From positions 33,746 through 97,745 of the forward strand of contig MDYQ01000090.1 in NCBI GenBank assembly GCA_003024175.1: a stretch of 64,000 bases of DNA. Reading direction: 5' to 3'. How positions within the stretch are numbered: the stretch's first letter is position 1; the number at the start of each line of letters is the position of its first letter. A program made the translations under genes and the position numbers. The stretch comes from Planoprotostelium fungivorum. Taxonomy: Eukaryota; Evosea; Variosea; Cavosteliida; Cavosteliaceae. Of this stretch, positions 48,943 through 52,547 are shown piece after piece. Below the pieces are notes generated by a model. The model was not told the DNA's origin. It saw nothing but the letters and a program-made list of their open reading frames with translations, and did no database searches.

Positions 48943-50468
48943 TTAGAATGCATTGAGAACCACGACCAACACACAGAAGAGAGCTCCTGCGGTCATCTGG
49001 ATTCCAGTGGCCTCAGATGTCGACTGCACGACGGAGGTGGATGATGATGATGCACTGGATTGAGTGCCAGTGGCAGCAGTGGCAGTGGCAGTTGCAGTGG
49101 CAGTGGCGGCAGTAGGCCTGACGATCTTCCACAGGAGACAATCGTCCGTTCCATCTGCAGCAAAGACGACGTTCGTGGACGCACTCGCAGATCCACAGCC
49201 AAAGTTTTTCAGAGCGAGACCGTTGGCACGATTGATGATCTTGTGATGACCTTTTTTTCCATCAGCGGTTACTCGTCGTGCATCTTCCATCACCTCTTCC
49301 ATCGGGGAGGAGAGACCACTGCTGGTTGAATCCACCGTTTCTGGGGTGATAGATGTAGGGGGAGTTGTCACTGTGAGTCTGCCCGAGGGCGTCTAAACAG
49401 CTCATGGTGCCTCCTCCGCTCTCGCAGATGAGATAATAGTTGAAACTGGATGGGACCAACTGCCAACCTCCAGAATTCGTCGAATTGGTGACGACTCTGG
49501 TGTCGATGTAGTTGAGACGCCCCTCCGAAGTCTTTGGCACGATGGTCACCTGCATCATCGTCACCCATCGAGATGATGGAATCTTCTCACTCTCTCCCTG
49601 GAATCGAATTCTCTCGAGACGTTGTGTGGCATATAGAGGCTGGCCACTTGTCTCGATCTCGACCAACATCGAAACGTTCCATTTTGTAAAATGTCATCGG
49701 AGGCGTTACTATAAGAGAGGAACCAGTATAAGACAGAAGTCTGAGCCCAATCTTCCACCTCATTGGTTCGTGCGTAAGGATCTGGAACACACGTGTCGTT
49801 ACCGATGGCGTTCTGCCACACATTCTGACCAGAGATGCCGTTCGAACTGGTGGACATTACCTTCACATGTGTCTCATTAGACTCACTAATCGAAGGAGTG
49901 GGCAGATTCATGGACGAAGACCTCGGCGAGGTACTGTCCCTTGTAGATGGCAGAGTTACCGATGGTCACTGCACCGTTTCCTGTTGGCTTTTGGGTGACT
50001 CGGTTGACGCTGCTTCTCACTGAAGGTGGCACCTGTGGAGTTACGTCTCAGTTCTTCGTGTTACGGTGTCGTGATGATAGATCTCACGTAGGAGAGAGCT
50101 CTCGCCATGGCGTTCTGATCCATCACGTAACCCTGGCATATGCACAACTCGATCCAGGTGCCGTCGTCGAAGTTGATCATCCAGGTGCTGTTCACGGGTA
50201 CTCCCTCGTTCTGAAAGGAAATTAGGCTCTTCCGATTCAAATGAGATCCGATCACCGTCCAGTATGGGCTGGTGTTGTTAGGATCACATGCATCCGAGCC
50301 CGCGCAAGAAGAGAGATTGGCAGGGAAGATGGAAAAGCCGCTGGGTTGTGGAGTTACCGCTGTTAAAGAGATGTGTCCAGATAGCCCATCACTCCAAATG
50401 ACATTCTTATTGGAGAGATCGTAGCCAAAGGCCAGAGTGACGAGAGCCAAGAGAGCTATTCCTCTCAT
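48943..50468 (-). CDS. Secreted GPI-anchored HExxH protein with ricin-B-like lectin module
   Basis: The start is ATG 50468 (MRGIALLALVTLAFGYDLSN), a signal peptide. After an N-terminal beta-rich part, spliced exons give IGNSAIYKGQYLAEVFVHES with AHSFD, which contains the zinc-binding motif HESAH. Then comes the downstream motif YARTNEVEDWAQTSVLYWF, whose acidic residues could supply a third ligand. This arrangement resembles the fungal conidiation-specific protein 13 family of putative metallopeptidases. The C-terminal part has CLDALGQ, NGGFNQQWSLLPDG and INRANGLALKNFGC, a ricin-B-type sugar-binding trefoil pattern. A Ser/Thr-rich stalk leads to a hydrophobic end (TAGALFCVLVVVLNAF), as in GPI-anchored proteins. 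Introns are about 40-57 nt. This is a lectin fold only; nothing suggests a toxin. Enzymatic activity is inferred, not shown. Confidence 0.7.
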
Positions 50469-50648
50469 TGCGGCTCCGAATAATGTGATTAATAGCCACT
50501 GCCCAGACAAAATTTATACGATCCACAGCAACTTCTACACCGACACTTGTCTATCACCAACGGGATTGTACTGAATCCGCTGTTGAAAGCATCGAACATG
50601 AACGGACACATTCGAGTATGATGCGTGTGGTTTTATCCCGTAGTCGTT
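50469..50648. other. Intergenic region
   Basis: A 180-base gap between two minus-strand genes, probably serving as the promoter of the HExxH gene. Nothing else is seen. Confidence 0.5.
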
Positions 50649-50940
50649 TTACAGGATGTTGCATGAGCAGGATTCACCACAGCCGCAGCAGCCGCAGGAC
50701 TCTGCACAACCTCCGTGAAGGTTGAAGGACAGCTGAACCTGAGCTCCGTCTTCCAAGACTTCCGAGTTGCTCTGAAGCATCTGTCCTCCCGTCAGCATGC
50801 TCCCTCTACATCGTCTCCTTCACCTGCACGTTCTGGGGGATGCCCTTCAGCTGGAAGATCTGCTCGCGCAGTTGAACCAAGTTCTTGGCCTCAGTCTGGA
50901 AGGTCTCGCCGGTGGAGGTGATGGTAACGGAGACGGTCAT
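50649..50940 (-). CDS. Mini ubiquitin-like protein fused to a cysteine-rich tail
   Basis: Two exons (50940-50824 and 50780-50649), joined in phase 0 across a 43-nt intron, give 82 residues. Residues 1-64 follow ubiquitin: MTVSVTITSTGETFQ (strands 1-2), LVQLREQIFQLKGIP (helix 1, cf. ubiquitin KIQDKEGIP), NVQMLQSNSEVLEDG (cf. RLIFAGKQLEDG) and VQLSFNLHGG (cf. LHLVLRLRGG). The loop and short helix of ubiquitin between the LEDG turn and the last strand are missing. After the double glycine comes CAESCGCCGCGESCSCNIL, with eight cysteines in nineteen residues, as in metallothioneins. Ubiquitin-family fusions to short basic proteins are known (S27a, L40, FUBI-S30), but a fusion to a metal-binding-like tail is not one I know. 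Cleavage after Gly-Gly is possible. Codon use is C-ending, as in highly expressed genes. Confidence 0.8.
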
Positions 50941-51333: not shown

Positions 51334-52143
51334 TCAAGCCGTTTTAGGGGCTTTAGCGGGTATAGGGTCTTCATTGTTCTTCTTTTGGACGACACCGACG
51401 GGGAAGATGACTCTGTCCCATGTTCCATTCACAACAGCAGCTGCTGACGCGTACCATGCGATGATGGCCACAGCGATTCCTAGCCATCCTCCCATCTCTG
51501 TGGGTATCTTGTTGTTGGTGAAGGCGCCGATTGTGAGAAGGAGGAATGTGATGGTGAGTGATAAGAAGAGGGCGAAGATCACACGGGTGACCTTCCAGGC
51601 GGCGATGGTCATGTAAGCCGTGAAGATGGTCCAAGCTAAGAGGTAGATGCCGACCGCTCGAAATGCAATGTTGGTCGCCTCGATGGTGGGCACGATGTTA
51701 AGGACGAAGCTTTGATAAGACAGCCAGAAGGCGCCATAGGAGAGGAAGGCGAGCGCTCCAAACGTGTTGGGCTTGAAGAACTCGAAGATACCGGCGATTC
51801 CCTGAGCGATACCGCCGTACCACAGGGCCAGAGGAAGCACCACACCTTGAACTGCGGGGTCGATGATGACGCCCGCATTGAAGATGGACAAGACAAAGGT
51901 GGTGGCAGCGAAACCGGCCAGACCCAACGGACCAGGGTCAGCGATTACTGGGAGCACGATGAGACGGACGTGGAGGCACGTGGACTCACCAGACTGTTGG
52001 CTGACTCTGAATTTCGAGTTGCCAACGATGTTTCGACAGACGTCAGAGAGTTCCTCTACGGTGAGCGTGATGTGTTGCTGTCCGGCGCTCAGAGTACTCG
52101 CTCTCGAATTGACGAGGTCGTATCTCGCTTCTGATGTGCTCAT
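51334..52143 (-). CDS. GPR1/FUN34/YaaH (SatP) family acetate transporter
   Basis: The start is ATG 52143. The protein has a hydrophilic N-terminus and six membrane helices. The family motif appears as ADPGPLGLAGFAATTFVLSI (the usual form is NPAPLGL). Further helices are GVVLPLALWYGGIAQGIAGI, FEFFKPNTFGALAFLSYGAF and IFALFLSLTITFLLLTIGAF. It ends PIPAKAPKTA. A 42-nt stretch with GTGAGT and CCCAG ends (about 51946-51987) fits an intron that splits a codon: removing it gives SQQSGV... or VIADPGPLGL, and keeping it leaves the frame open. Family members move acetate, succinate or ammonium across the plasma membrane; which of these cannot be told here. The Asn-to-Asp change in the substrate motif is worth noting. 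Confidence 0.9.
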   Translation of the reverse strand: MSTSEARYDLVNSRASTLSAGQQHITLTVEELSDVCRNIVGNSKFRVSQQSGESTCLHVRLIVLPVIADPGPLGLAGFAATTFVLSIFNAGVIIDPAVQGVVLPLALWYGGIAQGIAGIFEFFKPNTFGALAFLSYGAFWLSYQSFVLNIVPTIEATNIAFRAVGIYLLAWTIFTAYMTIAAWKVTRVIFALFLSLTITFLLLTIGAFTNNKIPTEMGGWLGIAVAIIAWYASAAAVVNGTWDRVIFPVGVVQKKNNEDPIPAKAPKTA

Positions 52144-52547
52144 GTTGTGTTGCTCTCTGTGTCTGTAGAGTTATGATCCTCTCAGTCCCGTCTCAAACAT
52201 CTACAAACTAAACGCCACAATAGATCCCTGGCATGGTTATCATAACACCACGACACTTCGCGTCAAAATTTAGACTTTGAGATGCTTATCTGTCTGACTA
52301 TTAAGCGATACTGATGGAGGATAAGAAGGTCAAGCCCCAATATCGTTGACTAATCCAACAAATGATCTCCGGGCTTGAGCGGTGATATCGTCAACGATGG
52401 GAGTACTCGCATGGCTATGAAATGGAAGCACGGAATGTCTCCCTGTCGTCATTTGTATTACTGTCGTGGATAATCTATGTGATCGAGGTGCAGCTCTATA
52501 TATGTATTCAAGCGGCTCACCACTGCACACTCATTTGCGCGGTTGTT
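52144..52547. other. Divergent intergenic region
   Basis: About 400 bases lie between the transporter and the RhoGAP gene, both transcribed outward, so it should hold both promoters. No coding exon is supported. Confidence 0.5.

Follow-up and report, generated by a model that had tools for sequence, protein, structure and literature searches.

A small gene on the minus strand of a 64,000-nucleotide (nt) stretch of the genome of the variosean amoeba Planoprotostelium fungivorum (contig MDYQ01000090.1, positions 33,746 to 97,745; hereafter the window, in whose numbering positions are given) encodes an 82-residue protein in which a shortened ubiquitin-like domain ending in Gly-Gly is followed by a cysteine-rich tail. 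This gene (50649..50940, from start to stop including one intron) belongs to a family of at least 12 paralogs, which we consider likely to be small ubiquitin-derived proteins anchored on the cytosolic side of a membrane, their lipidation, localization and partners being predicted. The observed basis of this reading is the resemblance in fold, the conserved LxGG and CaaX motifs, the paralog family and the matches to candidate enzymes in the genome. The family unites two schemes, a glycine end for conjugation and a CaaX lipid anchor, has expanded to at least this number of genes in a single amoeba, and offers a direct way to test if a membrane can store a modifier that proteolysis then sets free.

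A search of the 36.86-Mb genome with the window protein matched 11 further loci, the weakest on contig C27 (E 0.018). Three extra family queries brought up ubiquitin and a few weak additional matches, including C27:19009 and C86:24532, which on reading are not family members; the tail alone as query matched family members (5/5) and nothing else. The 12 proteins have 82–89 residues and pairwise identities of 34–89% (mean 48% over 66 pairs). On our reading, seven of the genes are interrupted by a phase-0 intron of 41–49 nt behind the Gln39 codon or its counterpart; in three more the intron, of 42–48 nt, follows codon 12 or 13 instead. The other two are intronless, and one of them (L018) reads straight across both intron sites. 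Over the whole protein, the ratio of nonsynonymous to synonymous substitution (dN/dS) is about 0.07–0.19 in five close pairs (dS 0.7–1.7, so approximate), and it is about 0.3 in the tails of the pair L018–L019. While the weak Pfam score of the single protein could suggest a pseudogene or a chance open reading frame, the low dN/dS argues against this, as do the 12 paralogs, the intron position shared by 7/12 and the fold; the probability of this alternative, which the paralogs already refute, is negligible, and on the sequence comparisons the window gene is real.

Residues 1–63 of the window protein form a short beta-grasp ending in LHGG, the two glycines lying at residues 62–63 (50709..50714), and not the 64 residues given in a preliminary description made from the sequence alone. 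Its recognition of a shortened ubiquitin-like beta-grasp holds, however: the family profile matches ubiquitin with an E-value of 3.4e-10, the domain fitting Gly-Gly to Gly-Gly (Gly75-Gly76), and the structure models of P0005, the public protein that contains the window protein, and of P0004 superpose on ubiquitin. The proposed equivalence of VLEDG with the QLEDG of ubiquitin was abandoned, as the paralog alignment puts VLEDG at an L-x-DG right before the last strand. Ubiquitin and NEDD8 (PF00240) have the beta-grasp, the TG turn, the KGIP..Q segment and the LxGG end in common with the family, whereas the latter is 6–13 residues shorter to the Gly-Gly, has Ser at position 70, lacks Arg at positions 72 and 74 (0/12 for each) and bears the Cys-rich CaaX tail after the Gly-Gly. 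All 12 paralogs have the LxGG, x being H, N, K or Y, and in 11 of them the Gly-Gly is directly followed by Cys. PF00240 matches eight members at E ≤ 0.1, and its cutoff of 25.4 bits was passed, at 26.1 and 25.5 bits, by two of the five proteins scanned, these being L018 and L024.

The tail (50652..50708) comprises 19 residues with seven Cys, which are candidate palmitoylation sites, correcting an earlier count of 18 residues with eight Cys. It closes with Cys79-Asn-Ile-Leu (CNIL; 50652..50663), and every paralog, counting back from the C-terminus, has a Cys at −4, then a variable residue (N, E, D, T, Q or S), Ile at −2 and a last residue that is either Leu (eight members) or Ile (four). By its sequence, this conserved C-x-I-(L/I) end is a CaaX box, which the preliminary description overlooked, taking the tail instead for a metallothionein-like, metal-binding peptide fused to the ubiquitin-like domain. 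The density of Cys, seven in 19 residues here and eight in the tails of L021 and L023, and the occurrence of CC and CxC pairs would suit such a peptide. However, the Cys count ranges from eight down to five and three across the paralogs with shifting spacing, it is the CaaX end that does not vary, and no metallothionein is found among the nine Pfam families that match any of the 12 members at E ≤ 0.1. The box is retained both in L026, whose tail has only three Cys, and in L025, whose tail is rearranged; thus the family shares with metallothioneins a short Cys-rich stretch but differs in having no constant number or spacing of Cys and a constant CaaX end. Because Cys number and spacing vary while the CaaX end stays constant, which is our main argument, a lipid anchor is favored over metal binding, and we regard the latter as very unlikely. 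The best interpretation of the tail is a membrane anchor carrying a prenyl group and probably palmitoyl as well. In the L025 tail an internal CCIL precedes PCSIL, which looks like the extension of an older CaaX end with a new one arising behind it.

By the rule given in PMC10511055, a CaaX sequence ending in Leu is of the geranylgeranyl kind. For the window protein, GGTase-I would add geranylgeranyl to the CaaX Cys of CNIL, Rce1 and ICMT would complete the C-terminal end after prenylation, and DHHC enzymes would acylate some of the upstream Cys to give a stable anchor. The beta-grasp, sitting 12–17 residues upstream of the lipidated Cys, would bind partners at the membrane, as do MUB and UBL3, the CaaX-bearing ubiquitin-fold proteins of plants and animals that are described in PMC4996978 and PMC10511055 as having no C-terminal glycines. 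Candidate enzymes are found in the genome, which has three prenyltransferase beta loci with pieces best matching RabGGTase, farnesyltransferase and GGTase-I, respectively, as well as Rce1-like, ICMT-family and DHHC matches. Several points weigh against the tethering reading. The second piece of the GGTase-I candidate locus (C15) fits RabGGTase better (71 vs. 59 bits), which leaves the first piece and elimination as the grounds for this assignment; the Rce1, ICMT and DHHC matches point to broad families without assignment to true orthologs, and the Rce1 and ICMT families also give matches in prokaryote controls. The tail has no basic cluster (0–2 Lys plus Arg), four of the 12 paralogs end in Ile instead of Leu, and lipidation is a prediction from sequence. 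As for the domain, the PF00240 score of the window protein is 13.2 bits, below the cutoff, and P0005 has a best Foldseek E-value of only 7.8e-4, with a mean predicted local distance difference test score of 65 for its model. Finally, tethering alone does not account for the unvarying LxGG.

This unexplained invariance keeps alive a second reading, in which the prenylated protein is a modifier stored at the membrane; cleavage behind LxGG by a deubiquitinase-like protease would then release the Gly-Gly-ended modifier and leave the lipidated peptide in place. We hold this to be possible rather than probable. The LxGG is kept in all members although pairwise identity drops to 34%, and its glycines align with Gly75-Gly76 of ubiquitin. 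Ubiquitin Arg72 and Arg74 are used by the ubiquitin E1 and by many deubiquitinases, and their absence from the family counts against the use of ordinary ubiquitin enzymes. Moreover, neither an E1 nor a protease specific to the family was identified: PF00899 finds 18 E1-like exon matches spread over nine contigs, which have no assigned link to the family and whose number says nothing for or against an orphan E1. Ubiquitin precursors, too, have C-terminal extensions, in ribosomal fusions and in polyubiquitin with a terminal extra residue, and share with the family material after Gly-Gly that is cleavable in principle; their extension is a ribosomal protein or one residue, whereas that of the family is a Cys-rich CaaX peptide. 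UBL3 and MUB, which are described as tethered without such use of a Gly-Gly, have no Gly at this place according to PMC4996978 and PMC10511055, a difference in favor of the stored modifier. More doubtful is the wider proposal that the family is a new kind of lipid-caged ubiquitin-like modifier: a protease cutting after LxGG would free an activatable modifier from at least 12 prenylated, membrane-stored precursors, and release from the membrane would itself control a private conjugation system. Any use of the Gly-Gly by the window protein or its paralogs is something that we infer. Membrane tethering and storage of a modifier are compatible, the one concerning the anchor and the other the Gly-Gly, and their likelihoods need not sum to one.

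Ubiquitin-like proteins are described in PMC4996978 and PMC10511055 as ending in glycine for conjugation or as lacking this end, UBL3/MUB being among the few exceptions, with a CaaX anchor instead; the CaaX sequence is likewise said there to distinguish UBL3 from other ubiquitin-like proteins (PMC10511055). MUB/UBL3 (PF13881) and the family have in common a small beta-grasp, a C-terminal CaaX that is often CxIL and extra Cys just upstream, but the former have about 117–120 residues and are described as having no C-terminal Gly-Gly. Comparison of the family profile with a profile of eight vertebrate UBL3s by hhalign gave no match (probability 0.1, E 0.44), plant MUBs lying outside this comparison, and PF13881 is absent from the nine Pfam families mentioned above. 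None of the structure-search rows shown (Foldseek, VIA-align) has an entry titled MUB or UBL3, which excludes nothing. A divergent MUB was considered and rejected, as PF13881 has only two matches in the genome, of 21.8 and 19.4 bits, both below the 23-bit cutoff: one sits on ubiquitin itself (C1:49485), while the other (C461) is open beyond the stretch examined and has no Gly-Gly plus CaaX pattern, although an intron-split gene could escape. On present evidence, from PF13881 and the vertebrate UBL3s, the family may work like MUB but is not one, and the profile comparisons suggest an origin from ubiquitin and not from MUB. UBL3 also suggests a third role for the tail, in which a Cys just upstream of the CaaX box would form a redox-sensitive disulfide bond with cargo and sort it to vesicles. 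Cys113 beside the CaaX box of UBL3 is reported to act so (PMC10511055), and Cys is kept at −6 in 9/12 paralogs and at −5 in 3/12, but the profile comparison shows no relation to vertebrate UBL3, and we consider this role unlikely.

To find relatives in other species, we searched 5.8 billion proteins with the family profile: of 4438 candidates, seven reached E ≤ 0.01, every one from P. fungivorum. With the intronless member alone as query, three of 11 candidates reached E ≤ 10, and these are from P. fungivorum as well. This protein search needs shared five-residue words and recovers only seven of the 12 family genes themselves, so relatives may be missed. The expected conservation of the Gly-Gly-Cys junction was therefore found among the paralogs and not shown in other species. 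Titles and abstract beginnings in the literature, with subscription papers mostly outside reach, held no description of such a protein. Given that MUB/UBL3 are published as having no Gly-Gly, a Cys-rich CaaX tail placed behind an LxGG is by sequence a new combination, found only in P. fungivorum within the limited reach of the search.

The gene reads from an ATG at 50940 to a TAA at 50651–50649. Exon 1 (50824..50940) encodes residues 1–39, which hold strands 1 and 2 and the main helix of the beta-grasp in the secondary structure of the model, and exon 2 (50649..50780) encodes residues 40–82 and the stop. The GT-AG intron between them (50781..50823; 43 nt, phase 0) joins codon 39 to codon 40. 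An unspliced reading would need a frame shift; candidate introns of 20–160 nt with GT-AG or GC-AG ends were listed. The public protein PROFUN_09685, which is P0005, contains all 82 residues with 100% identity and thus uses the same exon junction; this and the paralog introns bore out the intron of the preliminary description and ruled out a programmed frameshift or an assembly error in its place. The public record has 45 extra N-terminal residues. We prefer the MTV start: an in-frame stop is located 45 nt 5′ of this ATG, the interval contains no other in-frame ATG, and the leader ahead of the start is A/C-rich.

Seven of the 12 family genes are found among public proteins, and six of these match our reading from an MTV, MAI or MVA start onward; the public model of L026 (P0007) has a different start and omits the first strand read here. 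The models P0002, P0003, P0005 and P0007 carry mutually unlike N-terminal extensions resembling translated leaders, and their starts probably need correction. The MAI start marks a subfamily made up of L018 (C441), L019 and L020 (both C211) and L024 (C235), in which the intron lies at a different codon or is absent and the domain has 69–70 residues to the Gly-Gly, i.e., more of ubiquitin is kept.

The genome has 49 PF00240 matches: 17 repeats, two family members and 30 others, which were read in 27 regions. The repeats lie on five contigs and, from rows scoring alike on each contig rather than individual reading, are polyubiquitin. These 27 regions, C27:19009 and C461 were scanned for frames with a Gly-Gly and then a CaaX end within 30 residues, a scan that recovers 11/11 fetched family loci as a control. 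It revealed no further member in the 29 regions, where an intron between Gly-Gly and CaaX would hide one; its only match, L047, is a frame without ubiquitin-like sequence ahead. Four ubiquitin-like frames, L040, L058 (C464), L067 (C162) and L068 (C50), end in Gly-Cys and then a stop (LRGC, LTGC, LAGC), forming a second group with Cys in place of the last Gly and no CaaX box, to which L053 (C199) looks related.

Upstream of the window gene, on the same strand, lies a gene for a membrane protein of the GPR1/FUN34/YaaH family (51334–52146; PF01184, E 8.3e-47). Downstream, also on the minus strand, the frames at 49262–50513 look like parts of at least one other gene; one part has no match and another a weak match to a ricin-type lectin (17.2 bits, cutoff 25.6).
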